Shown here: piece after piece, positions 44,426 through 62,725 of the stretch
Layout: each line of letters begins with the position of its first letter
Position numbering within the stretch: the first letter of the stretch is position 1
NCBI RefSeq assembly: GCF_900215505.1
Contig: NZ_LT907844.1
Location: 4,883,078 to 4,947,077 of the forward strand
Length of the DNA: 64,000 bases
Reading direction: 5' to 3'
DNA from: Cohaesibacter sp. ES.047
Lineage (GTDB): Bacteria; Pseudomonadota; Alphaproteobacteria; Rhizobiales; Cohaesibacteraceae
Program-made: the position numbers and the translations under genes
The notes under the pieces: model-generated
Seen by the model: only the letters and a program-made list of their open reading frames with translations
Database searches by the model: none
What the model was told of the DNA's origin: nothing

Positions 44426-46390
44426 GTGGCGGATCCAGCCCTCATTCTGAAACAGGCGCAAAAAGAGCTTCACTCCGGCAGGCTCGACAAGGCCATGAGC
44501 CTTTGTGAAGGCCTCCTCGACAATCAGAAGCTCTTTGTGCCGACCCGCCTTCTCATCGCCAATGCATTGACCCAAAAGGGCAAGGTCGAGGAAGCGGCTC
44601 ATTTCACGCAGGAAGCAGCACACTTCGATCCATCCAATGTCGAGCTGCAGGTCGCAGCAGGGGACATTCTGGAGCGGCTCACAAGACACGACGAAGCCGC
44701 CCCATTCTTTCAGCGCGCGCTGGGCTCCCGCCCGCACGATCCGGCTCTATGGCGCAAGATGCTGGCCAATATGCTGACCAGCGCCAGACTGAAAGCCGCA
44801 GAGCGAGAAACCGGCAACAACAGCACCCAAGGCATATCCATTGCGCTTGGGGCCGCCCCGCCCGTCATTCCCGATCAGGTGGTGCAACTGGCAACCAAGG
44901 CCCTGCAGACCTTTTCGGACAATCATGAACTGGTTTCGCTTGTCGGCGAAATCTATCTGGCAGCTGGCCAGACCGATGCCGCCGAGCTGTGCTTCGAGCG
45001 GTCTCTCTCAGCCCGCCCGGCACTTTTTTCCGCCCACCACAATTGGCTGCAGATCAAGCACGAGGCCGAAAAATATCAGGACGTGATCGACTATCACAAG
45101 CAGCACGAAGAGGCGATCCGCAACAACGCGCTGTGCCAGAGGGTGGTTGCCGCAGCCTATGAAAACCTCGGCGACGATGGAACCGCCCTCGCCTTTCTTC
45201 AAAGAGCCATTGATCTGCGCCCCAACAGCCCGGAATATATCGGTGCAAGAGGACGCCTTCTGATCCATATGGGCGATTTCGGCGAGGCCCTGAAAGATCT
45301 CGAATACGCCCTTGCACATGAACCGCAAGTGGCCAGCCATGGCAACAACCGCCGCTTGGCCCATCAGGGGCTGGGCAATGTGACCGATGCGGCCAAGGAC
45401 GAATTCTACCGTTTCGAACTCTATGGCAGCACGCCGGTCTATCATTTTCAGAAGCCGCTCTGGACGGGAGAACCGCTCTCGGGCAAACGCCTGTTCATCT
45501 GGTCTGACGAGGGTGTCGGTGATGTCTTCAAGTTTGGTCTGCAGCTTGAAGAACTGCCGGATGACTGCGACGTCATCGTCATGAGCCAACCCAAGACGGT
45601 CGAGTTTCTAAAAGCCGCCATCCTGGGCATCGAGGCGCGCCCGCTGCCTCGTCGCATCAAGAAAAAGAAGCCGATTCAGCATTTCTCGGGGCAAGCGACG
45701 AGCCGCGACATCAACAGTTCAAGTGACTATGTCACCTTCGAGCCATTCGAGGAGGATTTCGACTATCAGATCCCCTTGGGCTGTCTCTATGGCCATTTGC
45801 GACCGAACCTGCAAAGCTTCAAGGACAAGGCACGGGCGTTTAAACTGCCAGCGGAGGCGATCCAGCCCTATGCGGATCTGGAATTGCTGTCCGATCCCGA
45901 CATCACCTGTGTGGGTCTGGCGTGGGAGAGCAGCGCCAAGTCTCCGGGAGACGCGCGCAAATTCCTCACGATTGAAGAAATGCTGCCGATCCTGACATTG
46001 CCGGGGTTCCGTTTCTTCAACTTTCAATATTCGGTCAGCGAAACGGAAATCGACGCGATCCGGGAGAAGCACGATATTCCTCTCTATCACGCGCCGGGCC
46101 TGGATCTGTTCGACGACATGCTGGGCACTGCGGCCTTCGCATCCTGCATGGACCTTTTCGTCGGACCGGGCAGCACAAGTTCGGATATTGCCGGCGGCAT
46201 GGGCGTAAAATGCTTTCGAACACACCTTGTTCAAAGCCCGGTCAACCTGGGACAGGACTATGTACCCTGGTATCTGGATCAAAAAAGCGTTCGAATTCCT
46301 TGGGGCAAGTCGGTCCATGACTTCATTCCCGACATGAAGGACTGGCTCGAAGCAAATAAAGACCACCGCAGCAAGAATCGGCAGGCTTGA
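44426..46390 (+). CDS. TPR-glycosyltransferase, probable flagellin glycosyltransferase (FlmG-like)
   Basis: The 654-residue protein has TPR repeats in roughly its first 310 residues (for example LHSGRLDKAMSLCEGLLDN, AAYENLGDDGTALAFLQRAIDLRPNSPEY). The second half resembles the GT9/O-GlcNAc-transferase GT-B fold: LFIWSDEGVGDVFKFGLQLEELPDDCDVIVMSQPKTVEFL, GLAWESSAKSPGDARKFLTIEEMLPIL, and CMDLFVGPGSTSSDIAGGMG. Caulobacter FlmG has the same TPR-plus-GT design and attaches a nonulosonic acid to flagellin. The start is a GTG at 44426 with GGAAAGG upstream; it lies 82 bases after the FlgN-like gene and close to flagellin and nonulosonate genes. Function is inferred. Confidence 0.72.
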   Translation: MADPALILKQAQKELHSGRLDKAMSLCEGLLDNQKLFVPTRLLIANALTQKGKVEEAAHFTQEAAHFDPSNVELQVAAGDILERLTRHDEAAPFFQRALGSRPHDPALWRKMLANMLTSARLKAAERETGNNSTQGISIALGAAPPVIPDQVVQLATKALQTFSDNHELVSLVGEIYLAAGQTDAAELCFERSLSARPALFSAHHNWLQIKHEAEKYQDVIDYHKQHEEAIRNNALCQRVVAAAYENLGDDGTALAFLQRAIDLRPNSPEYIGARGRLLIHMGDFGEALKDLEYALAHEPQVASHGNNRRLAHQGLGNVTDAAKDEFYRFELYGSTPVYHFQKPLWTGEPLSGKRLFIWSDEGVGDVFKFGLQLEELPDDCDVIVMSQPKTVEFLKAAILGIEARPLPRRIKKKKPIQHFSGQATSRDINSSSDYVTFEPFEEDFDYQIPLGCLYGHLRPNLQSFKDKARAFKLPAEAIQPYADLELLSDPDITCVGLAWESSAKSPGDARKFLTIEEMLPILTLPGFRFFNFQYSVSETEIDAIREKHDIPLYHAPGLDLFDDMLGTAAFASCMDLFVGPGSTSSDIAGGMGVKCFRTHLVQSPVNLGQDYVPWYLDQKSVRIPWGKSVHDFIPDMKDWLEANKDHRSKNRQA

Positions 46391-47106: not shown

Positions 47107-47188
47107 TACCAAGGGCGTGAAGTTCTGACTCTTTAGGGATTCCATTTTTAGCACTGGCGTGATTCAACATGGCAAAGGAGATTTTGCC

Positions 47189-48267: not shown

Positions 48268-48762
48268 TAAGTGCGGGCTGCACAGCTGCCAGCACCCAAC
48301 AACAGACATTTTCCCCCGCCAGCACCACCTCACAACCCTTCAAATACCCAACCAGCAGCTCAAACCAGAGCAAGACTACGTTTCAAAACCGCATTTCAGG
48401 CGCTCTTTAAATCAATTTTCTGGAGTCATTTTAGGAATTTAACAGCCTTTTTGCGGATTTCGCACCGCTATTAACAATACTGCCAAAGTCCATTGGAGCA
48501 GAATGCAGCGATGAGTCTCGTCGGGCGTCATGACGGGCGCCGGCTAAACACCTGCGAATCAGAGAGATTTGGACTTTTTGTTCAGCTTTGTAAGACTCCC
48601 TTTACCATGCGACTGCGACAGCAAGGCAAAATTAACCGTGACGCCGGTTAACCATATAATTTTACGAATGATTCCGCTTTCAAAGCCATTCTTCCCCTGA
48701 CCACGGACGGTCGTGATCCGAACATGGATCGACGAGTACTAACCAGAAAGGTTTTCGGGGAA
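48268..48762. other. Upstream region of the first flagellin gene
   Basis: This 495-base stretch holds no convincing gene. It contains a CtrA-like half-site TTAACCAT at 48648-48655 inside the palindrome GGTTAACC, and a shared flagellin leader word at 48734-48752. No sigma-54 element with a good match is present. The insertion sequence starts only 500 bases upstream of the gene, so it may have displaced distal regulatory sequence. Confidence 0.5.
48734..48752 (+). promoter_or_regulatory. Shared leader element of flagellin mRNA (copy 1)
   Basis: GAGTAC and CCAGAAAGGT occur just before this flagellin start and again before the second one (50483-50498), while the surrounding leaders differ. FlbT proteins act on flagellin 5' leaders in Caulobacter, and flbT is encoded nearby, so this may be its target or simply a conserved ribosome-binding context. 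Confidence 0.45.
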
Positions 48763-50178
48763 ATGTCAGATATTACTCTTTCCGCAGGTGTGCGGTCCAA
48801 CCTCCTCTCTCTGCAGCAGACAGCAGATCTCATGGCAGCAACGCAGAACCGGCTTTCGACGGGGAAGAAAGTCAACTCAGCGCTTGATAACGCCACCAAC
48901 TTTTTCACCTCTCAGAGCTTGAACACTCGCGCGGGCGATTTGAGCAACCTGATGGACTCCATCGGCAACGCAACCAAGGTTCTTGAAGCTGCTGACAACG
49001 GTATTTCCGCTATCACCGATCTGGTTGAGAGTGCTCAGTCTACGGTTCGTCAGGCACAGGCTGCCAACTCCGAAGCGAACGGCACGCAGGTTCTTGGTGC
49101 AGCATCGATTGACACTGCCGGTGCAACCGCGGGCTCTTCCGTCAAGGAAACGGTTGAAAACCAGACCTTGTCGAACCTAGGCTTCGGCGCCACGTCCAAC
49201 GTCGAGATCATCTCGACCTCTGACAGCGGCGTGACCAGCGAATTCGACTTGCTCGCACACTTCAGCTCGACAGGCCAGACCCTGACCGATAACGACGGCG
49301 CAGCATCGGCATCTACCGATGCTTACAGCGTTGGCGATCTGGTTAAAGACATCAACGCCTCTGGCGTGGCAACGGCATCGATCACCGAAGATGGTCGCCT
49401 GAACATCGAAGTTGACGGCAATGCGCAGCTTGAAGTTCGCATCACCGACGCCGACGCCACCGACGCCACCACACAGAATGGCACCACCGGTACGTCCATC
49501 GCAAAATCCTTCGGCTTCGGCACCTCTGCCGATGTTCTCGGCAAGCTGGCGGATGGCTCCACAGGTACCGTTGGCGACGCAGGCGGCACCTCCGTGACCT
49601 TCACCGATGGCGCAACCGCAGGTGACGTCGACGTACTGACCCTCGTCAATCAGGCAACCAGCACCGATGCCGACAACAACGAGCTTGTCACCCAGTTCAA
49701 CGAGATCCTTGATCAGATCGATGAGTTGGCACGTGACTCCAGCTTCAACGGCATCAACCTGATCAACGGCCTTGGCGACGACCTGACAGTGGCCTTCAAC
49801 GAGAAGCGTGACAGCAACAAATCCGAACTGACGATCGCTTCGGCTGACATGAGCTCTTCGGGCCTCAAACTCAGCGACTCTTCGACCCTGAGCTCAAGCG
49901 AAGCTGAAACAGCGCTCGACTCCTTGTCCGAAGCTCTGAACACCCTTCGCTCTCAGGCATCGACTTTTGGTTCGAACCTGAACACGGTGACGATCCGCGA
50001 GGAATTCACCAAAGCGACGATCAACACCCTGCAGACCGGTGCCGACGATCTGGTGCTGGCAGATACCAACGAGGAAGGCGCCAACATGCTGGCCCTGCAA
50101 ACCCGTCAGTCTCTGTCCACCACCTCCCTGTCGCTGGCCTCTCAGGCCGACCAGGCAGTGCTCAGCTTCCTGCGTTAA
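48763..50178 (+). CDS. fliC: Flagellin (copy 1)
   Basis: Filament subunit of 471 residues. The N-terminal D0/D1 region (DITLSAGVRSNLLSLQQTADLMAATQNRLSTGKKVNSALDNATNFFTSQSL) and C-terminal region (TKATINTLQTGADDLVLADTNEEGANMLALQTRQSLSTTSLSLASQADQAVLSFLR) are typical alphaproteobacterial flagellin. The middle surface domain is rich in Thr, Ser, Asp and Gly and nearly lacks Lys/Arg, so it offers many Ser/Thr sites for glycosylation. The ATG at 48763 aligns with the second copy; an upstream extension is spurious. It is followed by its own terminator. Confidence 0.96.
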   Translation: MSDITLSAGVRSNLLSLQQTADLMAATQNRLSTGKKVNSALDNATNFFTSQSLNTRAGDLSNLMDSIGNATKVLEAADNGISAITDLVESAQSTVRQAQAANSEANGTQVLGAASIDTAGATAGSSVKETVENQTLSNLGFGATSNVEIISTSDSGVTSEFDLLAHFSSTGQTLTDNDGAASASTDAYSVGDLVKDINASGVATASITEDGRLNIEVDGNAQLEVRITDADATDATTQNGTTGTSIAKSFGFGTSADVLGKLADGSTGTVGDAGGTSVTFTDGATAGDVDVLTLVNQATSTDADNNELVTQFNEILDQIDELARDSSFNGINLINGLGDDLTVAFNEKRDSNKSELTIASADMSSSGLKLSDSSTLSSSEAETALDSLSEALNTLRSQASTFGSNLNTVTIREEFTKATINTLQTGADDLVLADTNEEGANMLALQTRQSLSTTSLSLASQADQAVLSFLR

Positions 50179-50232: not shown

Positions 50233-50504
50233 GGCCTCGAAAAAACGTCCGGGTTAACACATCAAAAACTCGAACAATCACGAAGCCAGCCTCCAAAGCC
50301 CAAAATCCCCTTCCTCATTGTAATTACAAGATTTTAACCGCGTCCGGCAGGAGGAAAAACGCGCCAGTTGCAACACTCTGTTTAGGTTAACAGGACACGT
50401 TTGATTAACCTTAAATTAGTTTTTACACGCCATCATTTCCAGCAAGTCTCAGAAAGAGACCGGACTAAAAAGATTTGTATTCGAGTACCCAGAAAGGTAA
50501 CCCA
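50233..50504. other. Upstream region of flagellin copy 2
   Basis: No gene. Several CtrA-like half words are present (TTAAC at 50387-50391, TTAACC at 50405-50410, TTAA at 50411-50414), but none has the seven-base spacing of a full box. The shared leader element GAGTAC-CCAGAAAGGT lies at 50483-50498. Confidence 0.5.
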
Positions 50505-51929
50505 ATGTCTTCGGATATCACTCTCTCTGCTGGCGTGCGCCAGAACCTGCTGTCTCTCCAGAATACTGCGGACCTGATGTCACTCACGCAGAACCGTCTG
50601 GCGACAGGTAAAAAAGTTAACTCTGCGTTGGATAATCCAACCAACTTCTTCACCTCGGAAACACTGTCTAGCCGCGCGAACGACTTGAGCAACCTTCTGG
50701 ACGGCATTTCCAACTCGATCAAAACCCTCGAAGCTGCGGACAACGGTATTTCGGCCATCACTGATCTGGTCGAGAGCGCCCAGTCCACGGTTCGTCAGGC
50801 ACAGGCTGCCAACAATGAGACGGACGGCACCCACATTCAGGGCGCTCGCTCTATCGACACCGGCAGTGCAACGGTTGGTGACACCATCAAGGAAACCGTT
50901 GAAAACCAGACCCTGACCAACCTTGGCTTTGACCTTGCCACGTCCAATATCGAGATCATCTCGACCTCGACGAACGGCGTGACCAGTGAATTTGATCTGC
51001 TCGACCACTTCGCCTCTACGGGTGAAAGCCTGGCCGACGGTGACGGCTCTGCCTCTGCTTCGACCGATGATTACACCGTCAAGGATCTGGTGGAAGACAT
51101 CAACGCTTCGGGCGTCGCAACGGCAAGCATCACCGCTGACGGTCGTCTGGACCTTCAGGTCAATGGTAACTCGACGCTTCAGCTGCGCATTTCGGATGCT
51201 GATGCCACTGACGCCACCTCTCAGAATGGCACCGTCGGTACATCGATTGCAGAATCCTTCGGCTTCGGCACCTCTGCTGACGTCCTTGGCAAGCTCAATG
51301 ATGGCTCGACCGGTACGCTGGGTGATTCTGGTGGTACGGACGTTACCTGGACCGACGGCGCGACCGCCGGCGATGTTGACATCCTGAACATAGTCAACCA
51401 GGCAACCAACACCGACGCTGACAACAACGAACTTGTTGACCAGTACAACGAGATCCTCGATCAGATCGATGAGTTGGCACGTGACGCCAGCTACAACGGT
51501 ATCAACCTGATCAATGGTCTTGGTGAAGACTTGACGGTAGCCTTCAACGAACATCGCGACGAGAAAAAGTCCGAACTGCAGATCAAATCTGCCGATTTGA
51601 CCGCAACCGGCCTGTCCCTGACCGATGCCAACACCTTGAGTGATGAGGAAGCCAACCTCAAGCTCGACGCTCTGGCCGACGCACTTGTCACACTGCGCTC
51701 TCAGGCTTCGGCCTTCGGTTCCAACCTCTCAACGGTTCAGATCCGTGATGACTACACGACAAAAATGATCAATACCCTGCAGACCGGTGCGGATAACCTG
51801 GTTCTCGCAGACTCCAACGAGGAAGGCGCCAACATGCTGGCTCTGCAAACGCGTCAGCAGCTGTCGACCACCGCCCTGTCTCTGGCTTCCCAGGCAGACC
51901 AGGCGGTTACCCAGTTCCTCCGGGCCTAA
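50505..51929 (+). CDS. fliC: Flagellin (copy 2)
   Basis: A 474-residue paralogue of the preceding flagellin, similar along the whole length including the variable middle. The termini are nearly identical (DITLSAGVRQNLLSLQNTADLMSLTQNRLATGKKVNSALDNPTNFFTSETL and LQTGADNLVLADSNEEGANMLALQTRQQLSTTALSLASQADQAVTQFLRA). It has its own terminator, so the two genes are separately transcribed and may be differently regulated or assembled in different filament sections. The ATG at 50505 aligns with the start of copy 1. Confidence 0.96.
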   Translation: MSSDITLSAGVRQNLLSLQNTADLMSLTQNRLATGKKVNSALDNPTNFFTSETLSSRANDLSNLLDGISNSIKTLEAADNGISAITDLVESAQSTVRQAQAANNETDGTHIQGARSIDTGSATVGDTIKETVENQTLTNLGFDLATSNIEIISTSTNGVTSEFDLLDHFASTGESLADGDGSASASTDDYTVKDLVEDINASGVATASITADGRLDLQVNGNSTLQLRISDADATDATSQNGTVGTSIAESFGFGTSADVLGKLNDGSTGTLGDSGGTDVTWTDGATAGDVDILNIVNQATNTDADNNELVDQYNEILDQIDELARDASYNGINLINGLGEDLTVAFNEHRDEKKSELQIKSADLTATGLSLTDANTLSDEEANLKLDALADALVTLRSQASAFGSNLSTVQIRDDYTTKMINTLQTGADNLVLADSNEEGANMLALQTRQQLSTTALSLASQADQAVTQFLRA

Positions 51930-51981: not shown

Positions 51982-52193
51982 CTGTCGCAAACGCTTCGGT
52001 AAAAGCGTTATATCAAGTCTTATAGATTGGTGCCGAACTATCCGGACAGATGTCGGAACGCGCTTTGCAACCGGCGTCTTCCAATCGACTTGAACTTGAC
52101 AGTTTTTTCTGCATTTCTTTGACTGGGCAATCAAACGGCTGTATTAGACAAGCAAGATCAAAACAGATCCACTCTCAATACTGGTGTACAAAA

Positions 52194-52592
52194 ATGCCAC
52201 TTAAAATAGAACTGAAACCGGGCGAACGTATCATCATTGGTAGCAGCGTGATTACCAACGGCGATACTAGAACTAAATTTTATGTGGATGGAAGCTCTCC
52301 GATTTTGCGCGAGAAAGACATTCTCACCAGCCAGTCAGCCAATAGTCCGGCAAAACGGATCTATCTGTGCATACAATTGATGTATCTTGATCAAGATCTG
52401 GCCAAGCACAAGGATGCCTACTTCGAACTTGTTAACGACTTTATTCAAGCAGCACCAAGTTCGTTAAGGATTGTAGACAGCATAAATAGCAAAATCTTAA
52501 CGAATTCGCTCTACTCTGCCTTGAAGGAAGCAAAAGCTCTCATCCAGTACGAAGAGGAGTTACTCCGGAATGTACAACCAGTCCGCGGCTAA
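52194..52592 (+). CDS. flbT: Flagellin post-transcriptional regulator FlbT
   Basis: FlbT in Caulobacter binds the 5' leader of flagellin mRNA and blocks translation until the hook is complete; in rhizobia it can instead activate. The 132-residue protein contains LKIELKPGERIIIGSSVITNGDTRTKFYVDG, AKRIYLCIQLMYLDQD and ALKEAKALIQYEEELLRNV, all typical. The ATG at 52194 matches family starts (MPLKIELKPGE); an upstream extension of 48 codons is spurious. It overlaps flaF by 23 bases. Confidence 0.95.
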   Translation: MPLKIELKPGERIIIGSSVITNGDTRTKFYVDGSSPILREKDILTSQSANSPAKRIYLCIQLMYLDQDLAKHKDAYFELVNDFIQAAPSSLRIVDSINSKILTNSLYSALKEAKALIQYEEELLRNVQPVRG

Positions 52593-52938
52593 GGCTTACC
52601 AGCAAGCTGGTAACATTGGAGGCAGCCCGAGAGAAAAAGAGGCTGCAATGTTTCTTAAGGCGGCCGCATTTTTACAGCGCGCAAAGGCAGAGACGTCGAC
52701 ACGCGAAGACTGGGATCATGCCCTGTCCTTCAATCGCAACGTCTGGACGTTCATTGTAGGTGAACTCATGGATGACAACCACGAAATGCCAGCTGAGATT
52801 CGTCAGAATATCGTAAATCTCGGTATTTTCACCTTCAATCAGACCCTGCGCATCATAGGCGAGCCACGCAGCACCGGCGTTGACGCCCTGATCAACATAA
52901 ACCGCAGTATCGCCGAAGGCCTGCGCGGCAAGACCTGA
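52570..52938 (+). CDS. flaF: Flagellin synthesis protein FlaF
   Basis: FlaF acts opposite FlbT to promote flagellin production. The 122-residue, mostly helical protein starts MYNQSAAKAYQQAGNIGGSPREKEAAMFLKAAAFLQRAK and contains the conserved DWDHALSFNRNVWTFIVGEL-like block, the usual FlaF signature. Its start lies inside the flbT 3' end, so the antagonistic pair is co-translated. Confidence 0.95.
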   Translation: MYNQSAAKAYQQAGNIGGSPREKEAAMFLKAAAFLQRAKAETSTREDWDHALSFNRNVWTFIVGELMDDNHEMPAEIRQNIVNLGIFTFNQTLRIIGEPRSTGVDALININRSIAEGLRGKT

Positions 52939-53251: not shown

Positions 53252-53821
53252 ATGGCCCTTATTTCCTTAGAAGACAATCGCGAAAACTGGCAGGACGAAA
53301 CCCTCCTCCAGAAAGATCGTTGGCTCCCAAGGGCCAAACGCGCCTGCATGTTCGTTCGTCCCGGCGAGCGCGTCCTTGATCTGGGCTGCGGCTATCAGTT
53401 GTCCCGGCCCTTTCTGGAACCCGCCTGCAGTTACACCCCTTGCGATATCTCCCAGCGCACGCCCGACACGATTGTCTGCGACCTCAACAATGGTGAATTC
53501 CCCGAAGGACAATTTGATGCGGTGCTCGTGCTTGGCGTTTGGGAATACACACCGAACATCGATTTCATTCTCGATAAACTGCGCCAACAGGCCAAAAAGG
53601 TCATCTTTTCCTATTGCATGAGCAACGACACTTCGGAACAGATGATCCAGCAAAGAACAAAGTTCCGCTGGCTCACGCACTGGAATGCGTCTGAGCTGGA
53701 CAACATGTTCAAACGGCATCAGTTCAAGTTGGTTCATGCAGAAGTCATCGACAAGAGCAAGCATTTCGACCAAATTCTCGGTGTTCTCGCGAACATGGAA
53801 AAAGCAACCGAGTCGAAATAG
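53252..53821 (+). CDS. Class I SAM-dependent methyltransferase
   Basis: A 189-residue methyltransferase with the SAM-binding motif RVLDLGCGYQLSRPFL near residue 45, a downstream acidic motif TIVCDLNNGEFPEGQFDAVLVLGVWEYTPNIDFILDKL, and a Rossmann-like ending. The substrate is not evident. As the first gene of the sugar module it could methylate a glycan precursor or the glycan itself; alternatively a lipid or flagellin residue. It starts with ATG at 53252 after an AT-rich region. Confidence 0.8.
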   Translation: MALISLEDNRENWQDETLLQKDRWLPRAKRACMFVRPGERVLDLGCGYQLSRPFLEPACSYTPCDISQRTPDTIVCDLNNGEFPEGQFDAVLVLGVWEYTPNIDFILDKLRQQAKKVIFSYCMSNDTSEQMIQQRTKFRWLTHWNASELDNMFKRHQFKLVHAEVIDKSKHFDQILGVLANMEKATESK

Positions 53822-53892
53822 CCTGACCTGCTGGCATTCATGTCTTCCGGGCCGGACAAGGCCACCACTTCAGCGATGTGAACACCTTCGCA

Positions 53893-54618
53893 ATGACCAA
53901 CACCTCCGACAAAATCGTCTGCATCATCCCTGCCCGCGGCAACTCCAAGGGCATCGAGAACAAGAATCTGGTTGATCTGGGCGGCAAACCGCTGTTGCAC
54001 TGGACCATCAAGGCCGCCAAGCAGTCAGGCGTGATCGACCGCATCATCGTCTCCACCGAGAGCGAGGCGATTGCAGACAGCGCCCGTTCTGCCGGAGCCG
54101 AAGTGCCTTATATGCGCCCGACTGATCTTTCTCAGGACCATGTCCATTCTGTCCACGTCGTCATGGATCTTGCCAATTGGCTCGAAAGGGAAGAAGGCAC
54201 GAGACCAGACAACGTCATGATGCTGCTGCCCACGAGCCCCTTCCGCACCCCGGACAACCTTCGCGAGGCCGTGGCTCTTTTCAAACAGACGCAGGCCCCC
54301 GCCGTTATCAGCACCTTTGACACCGGCAAATACATGACCAACCTTCGATATCTGGAGGATGGAGCAATCGTGCCGGTCGACAGCAGCGAGAATGTCAACG
54401 CCCAGAGGCAGGGATTGAAGCGTCTCTATGCGGTGAATGGCTCGATCTATATCGCACGCACCGACGCTCTGCTCCAAGCGGGTTCGTTCCATATGCCCGG
54501 AGCTGTCGGCTACGAGATGCATGCTATCAACTCGATCGACATCAATAGCAAAGACGATCTATCCTATGCGCGTTTCTTGCAAAAGCACTTGGACGTCTGG
54601 GGCAAATTCGAAGCCTGA
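53893..54618 (+). CDS. CMP-nonulosonate synthetase (acylneuraminate cytidylyltransferase family)
   Basis: The 241-residue enzyme should activate a 3-deoxy-ulosonic acid with CTP. It shows the nucleotide-binding motif IIPARGNSKGIENKNLVDLGGKPLLHWTI and the family segments DRIIVSTESEAIADSARSAGAEVPYMRP and VMMLLPTSPFRTPDNLREAV, then VNGSIYIARTDALLQAGSF, as in NeuA/PseF/LegF. The ATG at 53893 is preferred over a GTG 15 bases upstream. The sugar could be a sialic, legionaminic, pseudaminic, KDN-like or related acid; sequence alone does not decide. Confidence 0.88.
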   Translation: MTNTSDKIVCIIPARGNSKGIENKNLVDLGGKPLLHWTIKAAKQSGVIDRIIVSTESEAIADSARSAGAEVPYMRPTDLSQDHVHSVHVVMDLANWLEREEGTRPDNVMMLLPTSPFRTPDNLREAVALFKQTQAPAVISTFDTGKYMTNLRYLEDGAIVPVDSSENVNAQRQGLKRLYAVNGSIYIARTDALLQAGSFHMPGAVGYEMHAINSIDINSKDDLSYARFLQKHLDVWGKFEA

Positions 54619-54641
54619 TCCAAACAACCAGAAGGCATGAC

Positions 54642-55745
54642 ATGACAAGCAGACTGGTCCATATCGGCGTTCATGACGCGGCCAACAAGAACGCAGGCGA
54701 TACCCTGCTCTATGAGGTAACGCGACGTGCCTTCGAACAGGCTCTGGGGCCCATCGAGTGGCTGCTCCACCAGCAATGGCAGATCTTCGATGAAGAAACC
54801 GCGCAAAAAATCAATGCAGATTTCGACGGCATCGTGATTGGCGGCGGCGGTGTCTTCCTGCGCGATCAGGCCGGTGCTGACATTCAGAACAGCGGCTGGC
54901 AGTGGAACAGCACCATAGCTGCCGTTAAGGCCATCTCCGTTCCGATCATCCTTTACGCCACCGGCTACAATCGCTTTCGCGGTCAAGAGGATTTCCCGCC
55001 GGTTTTCACGTCCCATATCAACGCCGTCTATGAGAAGGCCCCCTTCTTCAGCCTTCGAAACACGGGATCGATGCGGGCCATCGAGCGCTATCTTGACCCA
55101 TGCCCGAACCGGGAGGTGCGGCGGCAATTTTGCCCCACAACCCTCATCTGGCAACTTTATCCCCGACACCGCGCCATGGCAGAGGGCTATGACAGCAGCG
55201 GCCAGCGGCGCCTTGCCGTCAACGCCGCGTTTGATCGCCCCCATCTCAGGTTCGGTGCAGATCAGGACTTGGAGCTGGACCGGCTGGCCGAGGCCATGAA
55301 AAAGGCACAAGATCAGGGTTGGGCCATCTTGAATGTCTGCCACAAGGATCTTGATCAGCAGTTCGAACCCCATCTCAAGCGGGCCGGCGTTGATTTCCAG
55401 CGCACGGACATCACCAATCTCTCACCTGGAGGCATCATGGCCTTCTATGCGTCCGTCGATGCCGCCATCGGCATGCGCGGCCATGCCCAGTTGATCCCCT
55501 TTGGTCTCAGGCGACCGATCTTTTCCATCATCAGCCATGACAAGATGGCCTATTTTCTTCAGGATATCGGCCATCCCGAATGGGGCGCAGAGATTACCGA
55601 CCCTGCCTTGGGTGACCGTATCCTTGCGTTTCTATCAGGATTACAGAAAGACCCGGAGGATATCCGGGCCAAATTGGCATCCGCACAAACAGCGTGCTGG
55701 CAGGAAACCGAGCGGAACTTCGAACGCATCCGCTCGGTGCTTTGA
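54642..55745 (+). CDS. Polysaccharide pyruvyl transferase family protein
   Basis: The 367-residue protein shows the fold and motifs of the PS_pyruv_trans family, which adds ketal pyruvate to sugars: IGVHDAANKNAGDTLLYEVTRRAFE at the N-terminus, the glycine-rich FDGIVIGGGGVFLRDQ, and GGIMAFYASVDAAIGMRGHAQLIPFGLRRPIFSI near the C-terminus. Members outside capsule loci also include sialyltransferase-like enzymes, so actual pyruvylation is uncertain. It follows the cytidylyltransferase by 23 bases and ends 41 bases before the convergent neuB-like gene. Confidence 0.8.
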   Translation: MTSRLVHIGVHDAANKNAGDTLLYEVTRRAFEQALGPIEWLLHQQWQIFDEETAQKINADFDGIVIGGGGVFLRDQAGADIQNSGWQWNSTIAAVKAISVPIILYATGYNRFRGQEDFPPVFTSHINAVYEKAPFFSLRNTGSMRAIERYLDPCPNREVRRQFCPTTLIWQLYPRHRAMAEGYDSSGQRRLAVNAAFDRPHLRFGADQDLELDRLAEAMKKAQDQGWAILNVCHKDLDQQFEPHLKRAGVDFQRTDITNLSPGGIMAFYASVDAAIGMRGHAQLIPFGLRRPIFSIISHDKMAYFLQDIGHPEWGAEITDPALGDRILAFLSGLQKDPEDIRAKLASAQTACWQETERNFERIRSVL

Positions 55746-55785
55746 GAATCATGGCTCTGAACAACAAGGCTCTGAACAACAAGGC

Positions 55786-56625
55786 TCAGTCCGCTACATC
55801 AACACGCAGCTTGTCACGAATGGCCATCTCCGCTTCGGAAACGTGCTTTTCACCGGACCCCAACATGGATTGCACAGCCCGGACACTGTTGACGAAACTG
55901 ACAAGGGCGCGCGCCTCGATGGACGCAGCCTGATCCGACCCATACATGGCACGATCAAGCGTGATGTGGCGCTCAAGCGAGGTGGCCCCCAGAACGACTG
56001 CAGCAACACAGACCTTGACCAGCGAAGTTTCATGGCCGGAATAACCAACCGGACAGCTATAACGTTCGCGTAGCATCGGAATGCAGCGCAGGTTTGCGGC
56101 CTCTTCTTTCATTGGATAGGTGCTGTTGCAATGCATCAGCTCTAACGGACAATCGGCAGCCTTGAACATCCCAACCACTTCGTCGATCTCCTCGAGCGTC
56201 GCCATGCCCGTCGAAATAAAGGTCTTGCGTTTTTCCGACGCGATTGCCTTCAGCAGCGGCTTGTGGCCGAGCATGGCCGAGGCGACCTTGTTGAAGGGGA
56301 GATCGAACTGCCGCAGAAACTGCTGTGCCTTCACATCCCATGCCGACGCACTCCAGACGATCCCCTTTGCCTTGCAATAGGCATCGATTTCCGCATAGTC
56401 CTCGGCGGTGAACTCCAGCCCCATTTTCTGCTCGCGCTGGGTCGTGCCCCAGGGGCTTTCGCGTGGGCTATCCAGATAGTCCTTGGTGTAGACATCCTCC
56501 ACCGTGCGCTTTTGAAACTTGACCGCATCGAACCCCGCCGCAGCGGCAGCGTCAATGAGCTGTTTCGCAATATCCATATCGCCGTTGTGATTGATGCCGA
56601 TTTCAGCAATGAGATACAAGCTCAT
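55786..56625 (-). CDS. Short NeuB-like sialic-acid-type synthase
   Basis: The 279-residue enzyme is a TIM barrel that condenses phosphoenolpyruvate with a sugar to form a 3-deoxy-ulosonic acid. Typical motifs are LIAEIGINHNGDMDIAKQLIDAAAAAGFDAVKFQKR, KTFISTGMATLEEIDEVV, LMHCNSTYPMKEEAANL, and YSCPVGYSGHE, and GATSLERHITLDR near the end. Full-length NeuB (about 340-350) carries a C-terminal SAF domain; here only the barrel is present and the protein ends VRAVQSMLGSGEKHV... soon after. The ATG at 56625 is used; the start overlaps the end of the phosphatase gene by 23 bases. Substrate is uncertain. Confidence 0.85.
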   Translation of the reverse strand: MSLYLIAEIGINHNGDMDIAKQLIDAAAAAGFDAVKFQKRTVEDVYTKDYLDSPRESPWGTTQREQKMGLEFTAEDYAEIDAYCKAKGIVWSASAWDVKAQQFLRQFDLPFNKVASAMLGHKPLLKAIASEKRKTFISTGMATLEEIDEVVGMFKAADCPLELMHCNSTYPMKEEAANLRCIPMLRERYSCPVGYSGHETSLVKVCVAAVVLGATSLERHITLDRAMYGSDQAASIEARALVSFVNSVRAVQSMLGSGEKHVSEAEMAIRDKLRVDVAD

Positions 56626-57148
56626 CCAATTTCTCCTCTGACAGGTTATCGATCCCGAGCAGGCGCTCGATGGTGGCTCGAACAAACCCATTGCCACCCT
56701 GTTGCGGCAAGACATGATGCGCCACCCTGATGACGCGCGGATGGGCATCGCTGGGCGCTATGGCGCAGCCTGCCCGTCGCATGACCGGGAGGTCATTTAG
56801 ATCGTTCCCCAGATACACAAGCCCCTCAAAGGGGGACGTCGCATCCGGCATCCGATCGGCAAAATAGCCTTCAAGAAATGAAAGCTTATCGCCGATCGAT
56901 TGTTTGCATTCGATTTTCAGCTTCCGGCACCGGGCTTGCACCACCGGATTGCTCTCCTTGGACAAAACGAAAAGCTCCGCGTTCAACCATCCGGCCGCGA
57001 TGAAGGCCCGGACGAGATCGAACGCCAGCCCGTCACCCCGGTCGCAGCGAACCGTCTCCCGCCCCTCCTGATCGACAGAAACCTTGTTGTCCGTGAACAC
57101 CCCATCGAAATCGAAAACGATGGTGTGGACCGCTTTAAGGGAGGGCAT
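56603..57148 (-). CDS. KdsC-like HAD phosphatase
   Basis: A 181-residue C0-type haloacid dehalogenase phosphatase. The catalytic Asp pair is in TIVFDFDGVFTDNKV (Asp 13 and 15); the lysine motif and the second acidic pair occur in the GNDLNDLPVMRRAG region. KdsC dephosphorylates KDO-8-phosphate, and relatives dephosphorylate KDN-9-phosphate. Lying between gmhA and the neuB-like gene, it suggests that the NeuB-like product is phosphorylated. The ATG at 57148 is preferred; the open frame extends 20 codons upstream over the end of gmhA. Confidence 0.85.
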   Translation of the reverse strand: MPSLKAVHTIVFDFDGVFTDNKVSVDQEGRETVRCDRGDGLAFDLVRAFIAAGWLNAELFVLSKESNPVVQARCRKLKIECKQSIGDKLSFLEGYFADRMPDATSPFEGLVYLGNDLNDLPVMRRAGCAIAPSDAHPRVIRVAHHVLPQQGGNGFVRATIERLLGIDNLSEEKLDELVSHC

Positions 57149-57152
57149 GGGT

Positions 57153-57776
57153 TCACTCGACAAGGTCAAGATCCGTTTCCACCAGTTCGCACAACAGATG
57201 GCCCACAAAAATATGCGCCTCCTGAATCCGCGCCGTCACGGGGTCGTCGATGATGAGCGAGATATCGGCCTGATCACGCATCTGCCCGCCACACTTGCCC
57301 AGAAGCGTCATAGTGCGCAGCCCGGCCTCACGGGCCGCACAGATGCCATTGATTACATTGTCGCTATTGCCCGACGTCGACAGCCCGACGGCAACATCAC
57401 CCGGCCTGCCAAGAGCCTCAATCTGACGCGAAAAGATCTGATCGAAGCCGAAGTCATTGCCCACGCTCGTCAGGATAGAGGTGTCGGTGGTCAAAGCCAC
57501 CGAGCGCAAGGCACGCCGATCCGAGACAAACCGTCCGACGAATTCCGCCGCCAGATGCTGGCTGTCCGAAGCACTGCCCCCATTGCCGAACCAGAAGATG
57601 CAATGGCCGTTTTTCAGACAATGGGTGAGAACCTTGGCCATGCGCACGATCGTCTCACGATGCGCGCTCGCAATATTTTCGATGACCGCCTGATGCTCGG
57701 ACACGCGGCGTTCAATCAATGCCCCGAAGTCATTGTCCGGCGTCTCAACCCACTTTTTGGCAATTTGAGCTCTCAT
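57153..57776 (-). CDS. gmhA: Sedoheptulose-7-phosphate isomerase-like protein (SIS domain)
   Basis: The 207-residue protein is close to GmhA, which makes D-glycero-D-manno-heptose 7-phosphate. Motifs are CIFWFGNGGSASDSQHLAAEFVGRF (zinc and substrate site) and RSVALTTDTSILTSVGNDFGFDQIFSRQIEALGRPGDVAVGLSTSGNSDNVI, then AREAGLRTMTLLGKCGG. The ATG at 57776 is used; an upstream extension looks non-homologous. It may feed LPS heptose synthesis, but its position directly before phosphatase and NeuB-like genes suggests supply of an unusual sugar for the module. It follows flgL by 148 bases on the same strand. Confidence 0.88.
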   Translation of the reverse strand: MRAQIAKKWVETPDNDFGALIERRVSEHQAVIENIASAHRETIVRMAKVLTHCLKNGHCIFWFGNGGSASDSQHLAAEFVGRFVSDRRALRSVALTTDTSILTSVGNDFGFDQIFSRQIEALGRPGDVAVGLSTSGNSDNVINGICAAREAGLRTMTLLGKCGGQMRDQADISLIIDDPVTARIQEAHIFVGHLLCELVETDLDLVE

Positions 57777-57924: not shown

Positions 57925-59427
57925 TCAGATGAAGTTCGTCAACGTGAGCTGATACATCATGGAGGCCGCCTGATAGGACGCCTCGATGGTGTTTTTCAGC
58001 GTCATGATCTTGGCCGCCACCTCATCATCATTGACCCCGACGATGCCGTCAGATGCCGTCTGCAGCACGCTGTTTTTCGTGATGTGCCGCGCATCGGCGT
58101 CAGACATCATCTTGTGCGCAACGGCAATCTCCGTCTGGATCGTCTTGACCACATCATCCTGCTGAACACTCGAAAGCTTGGTCGAGATAGAATCTGCAAA
58201 GACAGTATAGCGGTTTTTGTCCAGAGGACTGTCTTGATCATAAGTCGGTATTGAAAAGGCCGAAATATAGGCCAGTTGACGCGCCAGGCTGTCCTCATTG
58301 GCGCGAGCGCCATAAGAGACCTGAAGGTTGTTATCGATAAGCACCTTCGCGGTGTCGCGCGAGTCATTGGCGTTGTTGTCGCCAACATACCAGTTGACCG
58401 TCGGCTTACCAGCGGCTGTGGCCGTATCCAGCGTTGTTGCCGTTGCCGGATCAGGGCCTACAACCCGCTTGGGTTCTCCATTGCCTGATGTGAGGAAGAA
58501 ATCGAGAGACGCCTGAATGCGCGACGCGGCCTCGCCCTCGACCTGAACACTTTCTTCGATCTTGTGCGCCAGCAGGGTTTCGATTTCGGTCGCAATCGAG
58601 CTCGGCGTGCCATTGATCGAGAAGGTGCCCTCATTGGGATCGCCAGTGCCATTGACCCCCGTCAGCCGCATGACTTCCGAGGACCCATCCGGCAAGGAGA
58701 GGGTAAAGCTGAGAACCTCGCCTTGCGACGGCGCCCCGGTCAGGGCCACGTCAACACTTGGCGGAACGCCCGCCGGTCCCGTGACCGTCGCATTGCTTAA
58801 TGTGCTTGTCACCGCATCGATCTTATAGCCAAAATCCGTCGCTTCTTCCGAAAGCGTCACCGTCGAGCCGACAGTCGAGAGGGCAAGTCGCCCCCGTCCG
58901 TCCGCGCCAGCATCGGCAAGAATGCGCTCGTCGGTAACGGCAACCAAGCCTTCTTGGCCTGAGATCCCGTAGAGAATTTCATCAAAATTCACCGTGGGCT
59001 GGGTCTCTGACGTGGTGCCGGAAAAGACGAAGTTGCCCGCAACTTCCGAATCGAGCAGCCCGAGCATCTCGCGCGCATAGGTCTCCGAGATTGCCTGTCC
59101 GACAGACCGGTTCTCGGACGTCATGCTGAATTCCGTGGCAGTAGCCGAACCACTGACATCGGAGCCGATTTCCACGAAGCGCTCCATCGCGACATTCATC
59201 ACGGAAATCTGCAACTGGGCCTGCTCGATAGACGAACGATAACCCGAGATCGAGCTGATCTGGGCACGGAGATCCAGCGACTGGCTGACCACGGAGCCAA
59301 GGCCACTGTAATTCTGCGATCGCTTGCCGGTCGCCAGCTGGATCGATAGATCCTCGAGGTTGTCTCTGTTGCTGGACAACACATTCATCAGGATCGTTGA
59401 CGAATATCCATTAAGTGCGTTGATCAT
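57925..59427 (-). CDS. flgL: Hook-filament junction protein FlgL
   Basis: The 500-residue protein has a flagellin-like N-terminus (LSSNRDNLEDLSIQLATGKRSQNYSGLGSVVSQSLDLRAQISSISGYRSSIEQAQLQISVMNVAME) and the FlgL-type segment SETYAREMLGLLDSEVAGNFVFSGTTSETQPTVNFDEIL. It ends in ASYQAASMMYQLTLTNFI. FlgL is the second junction protein between hook and filament. It is longer than the enteric form (about 317), with an expanded middle domain typical of alphaproteobacteria. It follows flgK by 17 bases. Confidence 0.92.
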   Translation of the reverse strand: MINALNGYSSTILMNVLSSNRDNLEDLSIQLATGKRSQNYSGLGSVVSQSLDLRAQISSISGYRSSIEQAQLQISVMNVAMERFVEIGSDVSGSATATEFSMTSENRSVGQAISETYAREMLGLLDSEVAGNFVFSGTTSETQPTVNFDEILYGISGQEGLVAVTDERILADAGADGRGRLALSTVGSTVTLSEEATDFGYKIDAVTSTLSNATVTGPAGVPPSVDVALTGAPSQGEVLSFTLSLPDGSSEVMRLTGVNGTGDPNEGTFSINGTPSSIATEIETLLAHKIEESVQVEGEAASRIQASLDFFLTSGNGEPKRVVGPDPATATTLDTATAAGKPTVNWYVGDNNANDSRDTAKVLIDNNLQVSYGARANEDSLARQLAYISAFSIPTYDQDSPLDKNRYTVFADSISTKLSSVQQDDVVKTIQTEIAVAHKMMSDADARHITKNSVLQTASDGIVGVNDDEVAAKIMTLKNTIEASYQAASMMYQLTLTNFI

Positions 59428-59444
59428 GTGTTACGTTCTCCAGC

Positions 59445-61301
59445 TTAAATCCGCAGCAAGGCGTCCATCATTTCCTTGACGGCCGTCATGACGCGAGCAT
59501 TGGCCGAATAGGCCGTTTGCAATTCGAGCAAATTGGCAAGCTCGGTATCGACATCCACCTTGGCCCCGTCCTCGAAACGTGCTTGAACATTGTTCATCAC
59601 GATTTCCTGACCGGAATGGCGGGTCTGGGCAGCGCTTGCCTGTTCTGCCTGATAGGTTATGAATTGCCGTGCATATTCATCCACGGTCATCGTAATCGGC
59701 GCGCCACCCGTCTGATATCCAAACGTCATCGCCTCGTCGGTCATGGCGTTGTAGAGCGCTTCGGGGCGGGTCTGATCTGCCTCCCCGATGCCGCTGCCAT
59801 ATTTGACGAGCAGCGATTGATCGATAATCAGGTCAGGGTTCACAGAGATGCGTCCGGCAAAGCCGGTCTGCTGCCGCTGTCCATCAACACTGCCAGTATA
59901 AAGCCCCGGCCCTTCTCCACCATCAACAAAGAACGGTAGCGCATCGGCCCGGTCCTGCAAGCCCGTTGCCGTAACGCTTGCATCCAGAGCCAGAACATTG
60001 ACCGTATTGGCGGCGCCATCATCAAGGATTTGAAGACTATTGCCCGACGGGTTACTGGCGGTGAAGGCACCGCCCAGCGCGGTCTGGATCTGCGCAGCAA
60101 CGCTCGCCATACCGCCCGAGAAATCAATCCCGTAAACCGTATCGTCGTTGCGCGCCGTGACATCATCGCCAAGGGGCAAGGAGGTTGCGGAATCCACCCG
60201 CACGAATGTCACAACATGCGTTTGACCCGTCCCGACATCCTCATAGGATAGCGTAATCTCGTCGCCCGACTGCATGGCTCCGAGGTCGACGTCAAACCCG
60301 GCTTGCAACCCGGATGTTGCCGCCGTCCCCTCAACATCATATTTGCTGAAGGCATCCGCCATTCCGTCGGCGAGATTGTCGAGCTGGTTTTGCGCTTCGA
60401 CCAGCAGATCATCGCGCAGTTCGAGCAAAGCGCCGATTTCGCCACTGGTGAAATCACTCGACTTGGTCACGTCATAAAGCGCACCGGTGTTGCTCTTGAG
60501 ATAGATCGAACCCAACTCACTAATAGCCGGATCGCTGTCCCATTCGGTCTGCGGTGCAACCGCGCCGTTGGCGGTGAACTCAAACTCCGCAGCCGCCTGA
60601 TCATAAACTGTCAGGCCATTGCCAAGCGAGATACTGACCGAATTGTCCTTGCCGTGCTGGACCCGAACGGGAACCAGCTCCGCCATCCGGGTGATCAACT
60701 GGTCGCGCTGATCCATCAGGCCTGCCGGATTATCGCCCTCCTGCGTGAAGGTCTGGATCTGTTTGTCCAGCGTCTGGATATCCGTGAGGTAGCTGTTGAG
60801 CTGATCGATGGCATCACTGATCCCCATCTCCGCATTTTGCCGGAGCTCCTGCAGGGTCTGCGATGCTTCATTCATGCGCTGGGTGAGAACGTTGGCGCTG
60901 TTGAGGACTTCAAGCCGCGAGGAGGCATCATCAGGCGTGGTCTGCAAGGCCTGCAACGATCCGGCAAAATCATTCACCAGAGAATCGAGTGCATTGCCAT
61001 CGCCCGGCGTTCCAAACACCGCATCGACCTGCTGCAGGAAATTGTTGATCGTCCCAGTATAGTTTGTCGCTGCAGTTTCCGTCCAATACTGCTTTTGCGC
61101 CACCAAATCCAAAGACCGGCGCACATCGGTGTTGAGCACACTCGTGACGTCACCGTTGAGGACAATCTCCTCACGGTTGACCACCTTGCGTGTATAGCCC
61201 ACCGTATTGGCATTGGTGACGTTGGACGCAACAATCTCAAGCTCGCGGTTTGTGGTTCGCAAACCCGATTGCGCAATCGACAATGCAGTTTTAAGCGCCA
61301 T
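59445..61301 (-). CDS. flgK: Hook-filament junction protein FlgK
   Basis: The 618-residue junction protein starts ALSIAQSGLRTTNRELEIVASNVTNANTVGYTRKVVNREE, has FlgK-type coiled-coil segments, and ends DTELANLLELQTAYSANARVMTAVKEMMDALLRI. It is exported via the flagellar apparatus with a FlgN chaperone. It lies between flgE (71 bases upstream) and flgL. Confidence 0.95.
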   Translation of the reverse strand: MALKTALSIAQSGLRTTNRELEIVASNVTNANTVGYTRKVVNREEIVLNGDVTSVLNTDVRRSLDLVAQKQYWTETAATNYTGTINNFLQQVDAVFGTPGDGNALDSLVNDFAGSLQALQTTPDDASSRLEVLNSANVLTQRMNEASQTLQELRQNAEMGISDAIDQLNSYLTDIQTLDKQIQTFTQEGDNPAGLMDQRDQLITRMAELVPVRVQHGKDNSVSISLGNGLTVYDQAAAEFEFTANGAVAPQTEWDSDPAISELGSIYLKSNTGALYDVTKSSDFTSGEIGALLELRDDLLVEAQNQLDNLADGMADAFSKYDVEGTAATSGLQAGFDVDLGAMQSGDEITLSYEDVGTGQTHVVTFVRVDSATSLPLGDDVTARNDDTVYGIDFSGGMASVAAQIQTALGGAFTASNPSGNSLQILDDGAANTVNVLALDASVTATGLQDRADALPFFVDGGEGPGLYTGSVDGQRQQTGFAGRISVNPDLIIDQSLLVKYGSGIGEADQTRPEALYNAMTDEAMTFGYQTGGAPITMTVDEYARQFITYQAEQASAAQTRHSGQEIVMNNVQARFEDGAKVDVDTELANLLELQTAYSANARVMTAVKEMMDALLRI

Positions 61302-61372
61302 GAGATCCCCTTCGGATCACCCCACCCGCCACCAAAGACCAAGGAGGCGGGAAGGAGAATTGTTCAGCGATC

Positions 61373-62725
61373 CTAACGGATCACCTGCATGACCTCGGAC
61401 AACATGTCCCGTGCGGTCGTCAGCACACGCGTGTTGGCCGAATAGGCCTGCTGCGATATGATCATTTTCGAGAATTCTTCGGCTATATCCACGTTGGCCG
61501 CTTCCAGCGAGGAACCGCGAATGGAACCGGTTGCCCCAAGAATGGCCTCACCGGAATCCTCGGTCGCCCGGAAGGCACCGCCACTTTCGCGCGCCAGATA
61601 GTTGTCACCATCGAAAGACGCAACAATGATCTCGGCCATCGAGCTTGACTTGCCATTGGAATAGTTCGCGACAATCGCGCCCGAATTATCGATGGAAATG
61701 CTGTTCTGCTCACCGGCTGCAGCCCCATCCTGTGACAGGTTCATGTTGGCTACACCGGTCTGGGTGGCGTAGGCCGTGATGCCGTCACCACCATGATCAA
61801 GCGTGATGTTGCCAAGCGCGATACCATCCACCGTCATGCCGGTCACAGTCACCGAAGACGTCGGCGCAGTCATCCCACCGGAGGAATCGAACACATAGTC
61901 GGTCCCCACGTTGGTCCATTTGGTCGCAGTGCCGGTCGCGGTGGAATCAGATTTGTAGAACAGGTTCCAGGTGTCCGGCGCATCAGAGACCTTACCCCAA
62001 CGAAGCTGCACACTGGCATTCTCGCCGTTGGCCACATAGGTCGTGATGGCACCACCCGAAATCGTCTGGGACAGGAACTGTGTCTCATCCTGCGCCTGAA
62101 CAACCCCGGTGCCGGAAACGGTCGGATCGACCGTGTAACCTGTACCCGGAGTGACCAAGGAACCAGCAGTATCTGTGGTCGAAGGCACTGCAGGCAGGTT
62201 GCCTTCGTAGGTGATGGTCGTTGTCGCCTCGGCAGCCATGAAGCCTTCTTTGAAGGTTGTCGGCTTGGGCACCGAGCTTACCGGGTTTCCGGTCGCATCA
62301 TCAAGTTCGATCACCGCGAGATAATACCCGGCCTCGTTGACGAAATACCCGTCTTCATCCTGCGTGAAGTCACCGCGACGGGTGTAAAGCGGGGTTCCGT
62401 CAAACACCGGCTGCCCGTCAACTTCGCCGATCTTCTCGTAGACGACGAAATAGCCATCGCCCGAAATCGACATGTGCGTTGAGGTATCGGAAGACCCGAC
62501 AGGACCAGCCACCGTGTTGGTCTGCCGCGAGTTGGTCAGAACCGAACCGGAAGTCTGGGAGTTCTTGTTGGACGTATAGTTGCTGACCAGATCGACGAAG
62601 GCGGTATCGACCCTCTTGAAGCCCACCGTGGACGTGTTGGCAATGTTGCCCGAGATATTCTGCATTGCAGATGACTGCGCACTCAGGCCGGAAACTGACG
62701 TTGTAAGCGCCGAATAGAGACTCAT
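61373..62725 (-). CDS. flgE: Flagellar hook protein FlgE
   Basis: The 450-residue hook subunit has the N-terminal rod/hook motif YSALTTSVSGLSAQSSAMQNISGNIANTSTVGFKRVDTAFVDLVSN and the C-terminal ANVDIAEEFSKMIISQQAYSANTRVLTTARDMLSEVMQVIR. It heads the flgE-flgK-flgL block and carries a sigma-54 promoter 45-60 bases upstream. Hook synthesis as a sigma-54 target fits class III of the Caulobacter hierarchy. Confidence 0.96.
   Translation of the reverse strand: MSLYSALTTSVSGLSAQSSAMQNISGNIANTSTVGFKRVDTAFVDLVSNYTSNKNSQTSGSVLTNSRQTNTVAGPVGSSDTSTHMSISGDGYFVVYEKIGEVDGQPVFDGTPLYTRRGDFTQDEDGYFVNEAGYYLAVIELDDATGNPVSSVPKPTTFKEGFMAAEATTTITYEGNLPAVPSTTDTAGSLVTPGTGYTVDPTVSGTGVVQAQDETQFLSQTISGGAITTYVANGENASVQLRWGKVSDAPDTWNLFYKSDSTATGTATKWTNVGTDYVFDSSGGMTAPTSSVTVTGMTVDGIALGNITLDHGGDGITAYATQTGVANMNLSQDGAAAGEQNSISIDNSGAIVANYSNGKSSSMAEIIVASFDGDNYLARESGGAFRATEDSGEAILGATGSIRGSSLEAANVDIAEEFSKMIISQQAYSANTRVLTTARDMLSEVMQVIR

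Follow-up and report, generated by a model that had tools for sequence, protein, structure and literature searches.

A stretch of 64,000 nucleotides from Cohaesibacter sp. ES.047, referred to here as the window (positions 4883078-4947077 of NZ_LT907844.1, the one contig of a 5,110,232-base genome that is 99.98% complete), carries a set of genes that appears to direct the formation of an unusual sugar acid for flagellin. They encode a GmhA-type isomerase, a KdsC-like phosphatase of the HAD family, a NeuB-family synthase condensing phosphoenolpyruvate (PEP), and a cytidine monophosphate (CMP) sugar synthetase. That these four enzymes serve one pathway, as the initial annotation had proposed, is well supported by sequence comparison; in other organisms GmhA and HAD are fused beside neuB. 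With moderate confidence, we propose a five-step pathway leading to a ten-carbon relative of ketodeoxynononic acid (KDN) and 3-deoxy-D-manno-oct-2-ulosonic acid (Kdo). The known ulosonic acids of cell surfaces have eight carbons, as in Kdo, or nine, as in the sialic acids and their kin. In the full-text literature searched, which omits most subscription papers, neither an ulosonic acid with ten carbons nor a paper connecting GmhA with NeuB was found.

In the first of the proposed steps GmhA would turn sedoheptulose 7-phosphate into heptose 7-phosphate, in keeping with its retained residues. NeuB would then join heptose 7-phosphate to PEP, forming a 3-deoxy-dec-2-ulosonate 10-phosphate; the predicted product has ten carbons because the seven of the heptose phosphate are joined by three from PEP. 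The phosphate would be taken off by the KdsC-like HAD protein, and the CMP sugar formed by the cytidylyltransferase. In the last step an FlmG-type transferase may attach the sugar to flagellin, perhaps following methylation and pyruvylation. Given facial selectivity like that of KDN synthase, the product would be 3-deoxy-D-erythro-D-galacto-dec-2-ulosonic acid. For the acid, C10H18O10, a residue mass of 280.079 was computed, compared to 250.069 for KDN.

The strongest evidence for this pathway is comparative. From 582 relatives of the window NeuB found in a scan of named genomes, we retained the best 80; all 80-locus counts refer to these. They share 47-74% identity with the window protein and come from Pelagibacteraceae, Clostridia, Chloroflexi, Acidobacteria, Cyanobacteria, Magnetococcales, candidate phyla and one Thermoplasmatales bin. 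A gmhA gene on the same strand lies no more than 300 nucleotides (nt) from the neuB gene in 19/80 loci and no more than 1500 nt away in 22/80; within 1500 nt there is a HAD gene in 29 and a CMP synthetase gene in 31 loci. In a first control, the SAF-type NeuBs of the source organism's order, gmhA was nearby in 0/48 and HAD in 2/48. The second control consisted of SAF-type NeuBs in the same genomes as the relatives (40 loci fetched, L225 dropped since it held a SAF-less NeuB). Here gmhA was found in 1/39, and that one is the L117 locus, where a SAF-less module lies next door; gmhA, HAD, neuB and CMP synthetase stand all in one row in L117. Long NeuB fusions have gmhA nearby in four of six cases. 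The SAF-less NeuBs of the order, one of which is a contig-end fragment, have gmhA in 0/14 and HAD in 9/14.

The isomerase and the phosphatase form one protein in 13 of the 80 loci, as HAD-GmhA in 12 and as GmhA-HAD in L134. The gap between fusion gene and neuB is at most 25 nt in ten of these, 1809 nt in L132 and 3656 nt in L134, and in L137 the fusion frame extends into neuB through overprediction. Both halves were seen by NCBIfam models in all four fusions tested (L076, L077, L088 and L134), the KdsC half scoring over its cut-off in L076 and L134. Fusions of CMP synthetase and HAD occur in six of the 80 loci. The four zinc ligands of the isomerase are retained in 18 of the 22 linked GmhAs. 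Read from this gene linkage, heptose is a fairly probable acceptor for NeuB. The initial annotation had suggested heptose 7-phosphate in this role, and the suggestion has gained strength from the retained residues, from the tracking of a NeuB clade by GmhA-type genes and from the finding that GmhA has no other known partner in the genome; the acceptor, and with it the ten-carbon product, stay predictions.

The scores of the module, 227 bits for PF03102 and 90.5 bits for SIS_2 among them, are far beyond chance. The window NeuB matches the whole PF03102 profile (cut-off 22.1 bits), and because this is its sole Pfam match the 279-residue protein is taken to be without a C-terminal SAF domain; the same search did detect SAF in a congener (L038). 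This absence, read correctly in the initial annotation, is not odd by itself, since the SAF tail is missing in 80/80 relatives and in PDB entry 6ncs (285 residues), the best match to an AlphaFold model of NeuB that has a mean predicted local distance difference test (pLDDT) score of 94.9 with 47 sequences. NeuB scores 249 bits against the NnaB model TIGR03569 (cut-off 399.65) and 180 bits against the PseI model (cut-off 340). The GmhA scores 189.8 bits against TIGR00441, under the cut-off of 209.45, which E. coli-type GmhAs elsewhere likewise miss in the majority of the genomes surveyed for genome-wide GmhA. Its best PDB chain is 1tk9, GmhA 1, and its phosphate residues S133, T134, S135 and S138 are retained. 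All four zinc ligands, H74, E78, Q185 and H193, are retained, as defined after PMC5387315 with E. coli gmhA from NC_000913 as reference. The HAD protein scores 62-64 bits against KdsC models (62 bits for TIGR01670, cut-off 106.95), with 3mmz as its best PDB chain. For the CMP synthetase the nearest NCBIfam model is PseF (152 bits, cut-off 206) and the PDB match is the CMP-N-acetylneuraminate synthetase 6ifd.

In a NeuB tree of 117 rows the window protein falls within a 63-member clade with support of 100/99. Members of this clade have gmhA linked to neuB in 21 cases, otherwise within 6 kb in nine and elsewhere in the genome in 25, so that a GmhA-type gene is present in 55 of the 63 genomes (47 under a stricter score). 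A separate SAF-less clade of nine members, with CMP synthetase-HAD fusions, has GmhA in 0/9 genomes and may be called KDN-like from its gene content. Genomes of SAF-type NeuBs have GmhA (TIGR00441 above 80 bits) in 6/20. The state of local gmhA changes 14 times on the tree, at least 12 of these changes being forced, and the link between gmhA and neuB was therefore gained or regained repeatedly. Thirty-seven positions separate the linked NeuBs from those of this nine-member SAF-less clade, R55, W59, R64, Q66, E199, Y228 and Q232 among them; as candidate specificity residues they serve as a lead only.

A number of observations weigh against a heptose-derived product. The gmhA gene is unlinked to neuB in 58/80 loci, and no GmhA was detected in eight of the 63 clade genomes. 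Among the 44 genomes without gmhA near neuB, TIGR00441 exceeds 80 bits in 32 and 140 bits in 22; the other 12 reach neither score and are the 12 of the 80 genomes in which no GmhA was found. Eleven of these are recorded as bins, single cells or small assemblies. Caulobacter sp. Root1455 (L121), a 5.1-Mb isolate, has no GmhA, and HAD and CMP synthetase are also not near its neuB. The Fisher values for the linkage, 5e-4 with the second control and 2e-7 pooled, count related loci as independent, and 1500 nt are present on both sides in only 69/80 loci and 40/48 order controls. An incomplete set of the four zinc ligands is seen in the linked GmhAs of L071, L075, L079 and L101; in L071, a near relative, one ligand is missing. 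Genomes of four FlmG-locus relatives (L032-L035, 43-46% identity) have GmhA in 0/4, and since both these and the nine-member clade with HAD do without GmhA, the SAF-less NeuB fold needs no heptose. GmhA, HAD, NeuB and CMP synthetase each score under their NCBIfam cut-offs, so that substrate specificity is not readable from the scores.

The main rival is a KDN route, which we regard as unlikely. NeuB would condense mannose 6-phosphate with PEP to KDN-9-phosphate, the HAD protein would yield KDN, and CMP-KDN would follow; GmhA would be a fructose-6-phosphate/mannose-6-phosphate isomerase, or feed nothing here. Such a route is known. The Kdn-9-P synthase of Prymnesium, a NeuB-type enzyme that accepts a 6-phosphosugar and is followed by a KdsC-type phosphatase, took mannose 6-phosphate alone of seven sugars tested, and the phosphatase of Bacteroides thetaiotaomicron carried out the next step (PMC6200933). 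The phosphorylated acceptor, the phosphatase and the CMP synthetase of that pathway have counterparts in our proposal (PMC6200933), but it contains no isomerase, whereas GmhA is linked in the window and fused to the phosphatase in relatives. A SAF-less NeuB with HAD and without GmhA does exist, in nine genomes, yet GmhA-type genes track the clade of the window NeuB and not that nine-member clade. The window HAD resembles the KDN-9-phosphatase model NF058599 at 61.7 bits, far under its cut-off of 180. The residues of the window GmhA are canonical, and a HAD-GmhA fusion beside neuB would be pointless if the acceptor were mannose 6-phosphate from general metabolism. A phosphorylated route has also been read from a Leptospira nonulosonic acid synthase fused to a phosphatase domain, although its proposed product is N-acetylneuraminic acid (Neu5Ac) and no isomerase is named in the part of the paper at hand (PMC3438082).

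The remainder of the genome bears on the partner of GmhA. The window NeuB is its only PF03102 match and the window HAD its only match to the KdsC family (TIGR01670); CTP_transf_3 has four matches, the window CMP synthetase included. SIS_2 has two, and the second gene was ruled out as a GmhA, being a PRK02947-type isomerase (300 bits). A genome search for HldE domain II gave no match, and the best GmhB scores were 25 and 21 bits, none over the cut-off; the window GmhA is therefore without a known heptose-activation partner (GHMP-type heptose kinases were not searched). For these reasons a role of GmhA in lipopolysaccharide heptose was rejected for this organism. It is improbable, on the same grounds, that the genes have separate roles, GmhA serving a heptose on flagellin or the envelope while HAD and NeuB independently make KDN or another acid. 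In four congeners the neighbours of gmhA do look like an activated-heptose set, consisting of a GHMP kinase, a nucleotidyltransferase and a GmhB-type HAD (checked by Pfam in L038 only), but separate roles also fit poorly with the fusion of GmhA to a KdsC-like HAD in 13/80 loci.

Kdo is formed by an isomerase, PEP condensation, a phosphatase and CTP transfer (KdsD, KdsA, KdsC and KdsB), and the gene logic of the module matches this order of steps: a SIS isomerase giving an aldose phosphate, a PEP-condensing barrel, a KdsC-type HAD and a CTP transferase. The isomerase might accordingly make another aldose phosphate, such as arabinose 5-phosphate, on the way to Kdo or another known ulosonate, and a clostridial Maf is able to put Kdo on flagellin (PMC11339370). 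We hold this to be slightly less probable still, as the barrel is of the NeuB family and not KdsA and the isomerase is GmhA-type with the residues of the heptose enzyme; arabinose 5-phosphate, moreover, was not used by the Kdn-9-P synthase (PMC6200933). Our proposal also differs from the Kdo pathway in its predicted acceptor, which has seven carbons and not five. It is very improbable that the module belongs to a standard route to pseudaminate, legionaminate or Neu5Ac whose remaining genes lie elsewhere, despite the PseF likeness of the CMP synthetase and the use of pseudaminate by Caulobacter FlmG (PMC7591256), given that PseB reaches at best 168 of the 408 bits needed, that NeuC has no match in the genome (N-acetylmannosamine 6-phosphate routes were not searched) and that the single NeuB is well short of the NnaB and PseI models (legionaminate models were not run). 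Pseudaminate and NeuC-type Neu5Ac routes are thus unsupported in this genome (LegB, LegC and LegG were not searched), which extends to the whole genome what the initial annotation had said of pseudaminate genes at the module.

Our proposal of a heptose-derived acid could apply beyond this genome. It is about as likely as not that deculosonates made by GmhA, SAF-less NeuB and KdsC-like phosphatase are widespread, on flagellin here, and formed in SAR11 relatives, Clostridia, Chloroflexi, Acidobacteria, Cyanobacteria, Magnetococci, candidate phyla and an archaeal bin. If so, there would be a class of ten-carbon ulosonic acids that arose from the reuse of heptose and sialate enzymes. This would account for GmhA in microbes without heptose-bearing lipopolysaccharide, as are many Clostridia in the set, and the enzyme set is short and open to direct assay.

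Table 1. Features of the window, numbered from its first nucleotide
Feature	Position	Strand	Evidence and remarks
SAM methyltransferase, 189 residues	53252..53821	+	PF13489 41 bits
CMP-ulosonate synthetase, 246 residues	53878..54618	+	PF02348 93 bits
Pyruvyltransferase-family protein, 367 residues	54642..55745	+	PF04230 57 bits
NeuB-family PEP-condensing synthase without SAF, 279 residues	55786..56625	-	PF03102 227-228 bits; likely start 56625
KdsC-like HAD phosphatase, 181 residues	56603..57148	-	KdsC and KDN-9-phosphatase models, below cut-offs; likely start 57148
GmhA-type sedoheptulose-7-phosphate isomerase, 207 residues	57153..57776	-	TIGR00441 below cut-off; PF13580 90.5 bits; likely start 57776
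FlmG-like TPR protein, candidate flagellin glycosyltransferase	44426..46390	+	TPR matches alone
Flagellin 1, likely acceptor	48724..50178	+	Flagellin_N and Flagellin_C
Flagellin 2, likely acceptor	50475..51929	+	Flagellin_N and Flagellin_C; 76% identity to flagellin 1
FlbT (from 52050) and FlaF (from 52570), context	52050..52938	+	PF07378 138 bits; PF07309 99 bits
FlgL-like, FlgK, FlgE-like, context	57925..62725	-	FlgK_D1 156 bits; Flg_bbr_C; FlgL-like gene: Flagellin_N 23 bits, FlgL model 44 bits

The gmhA, HAD and neuB genes form one tight minus-strand run (57776-55786) downstream of flgE, flgK and flgL on the same strand, with 4 nt between gmhA and HAD and an overlap of 23 nt between HAD and the start of neuB. 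Facing them on the plus strand are the methyltransferase gene, then those for the CMP synthetase and the pyruvyltransferase-like protein, and the whole lies between flagellar genes. The gene assignments of the initial annotation, the CMP synthetase and pyruvyltransferase-like genes included, and its tight or overlapping junctions are confirmed. The methyltransferase may methylate the glycan. Relatives of the pyruvyltransferase-like protein with 25-30% identity adjoin SAF-less neuB in four other flagellar or FlmG-type loci; the protein was also considered as a glycosyltransferase, and its structure model, with a pLDDT of 36, was not used. We take the TPR protein to be FlmG-like from its architecture and its place, not from a family match, and relatives of it found beside neuB loci add to the basis of this label. 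The FlmG-like gene is separated from the flagellin genes by an IS630-family transposase in two overlapping frames (47159-48255, plus strand; NCBIfam 91.5 and 134.5 bits). Caulobacter FlmG is likewise a cytoplasmic TPR-type O-glycosyltransferase that places a NeuB product on flagellin, in that case pseudaminate from PseB-type steps (PMC7591256). A search of the literature for flagellin glycans by mass gave nothing useful. The 274-Da sugar of Shewanella is a two-nitrogen nonulosonate (PMC3765264) and hence not the proposed acid. A term search for an isomerase had no match in the available text of a Clostridium flagellin paper (PMC13317340) and of a Vibrionaceae cluster paper (PMC7371886).

In the order, 93/297 genomes have a NeuB match, with a best identity of 46%. 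Within the genus a window-type NeuB is present in two of 18 genomes, the source genome and G301, where it is a contig-end fragment (62% identity). Four other congeners (L036, L037, L038 and L068) have in the same flagellar region a NeuB of 630-651 residues; gmhA is separated from it by 106-135 nt, and there is a CMP synthetase gene in the vicinity. The flagellar sugar cassette therefore varies within the genus, and glycan cassettes seem to be swapped. The one long NeuB checked by Pfam, that of L038, has the architecture NeuB-SAF-AP_endonuc_2. It recalls the NeuB-COG1082 fusion of a Serratia capsule locus, an unusual NeuB tied to KDN production (PMC9000132); the window NeuB, in contrast, has neither SAF nor the COG1082 domain. 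L038 also carries a GmhB-like HAD, a nucleotidyltransferase and a CBS-GHMP kinase. In G301 (L062:1-4300) the methyltransferase, CMP synthetase, pyruvyltransferase-like and neuB genes looked broken, and HAD and gmhA fall beyond the contig end. Gene decay was considered and rejected; FlbT and FlaF are split likewise, so that sequence error at the contig end is the likelier cause.

The neighbours of 27 GmhA-bearing loci comprise 167 proteins, of which 130 were scanned. Among these were 19 short-chain dehydrogenases, 15 AP_endonuc_2 barrels, six thiamine pyrophosphate (TPP) enzymes and three MptE/Maf-like proteins, and because such sugar-modifying neighbours are frequent the final sugars probably differ between organisms. 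Five clostridial loci (L076, L096, L098, L106 and L115) have a gene for 590-607 residues near the HAD-GmhA fusion, a TPP enzyme in L076, which perhaps carries out a branched-sugar step. Two HAD-GmhA fusions beside neuB (L075:8898-9962 and L079:8901-9989) have an isomerase half in which key residues are lost. The four FlmG-locus relatives, whose genomes are without GmhA, combine a SAF-less NeuB with CMP synthetase, pyruvyltransferase-like and FlmG-like genes and point to a further route. In the Caulobacter loci L119 and L121 there is no GmhA, HAD or CMP synthetase near the SAF-less neuB, and the genes there, judged by their translations, resemble those of cytidine diphosphate-hexose synthesis.

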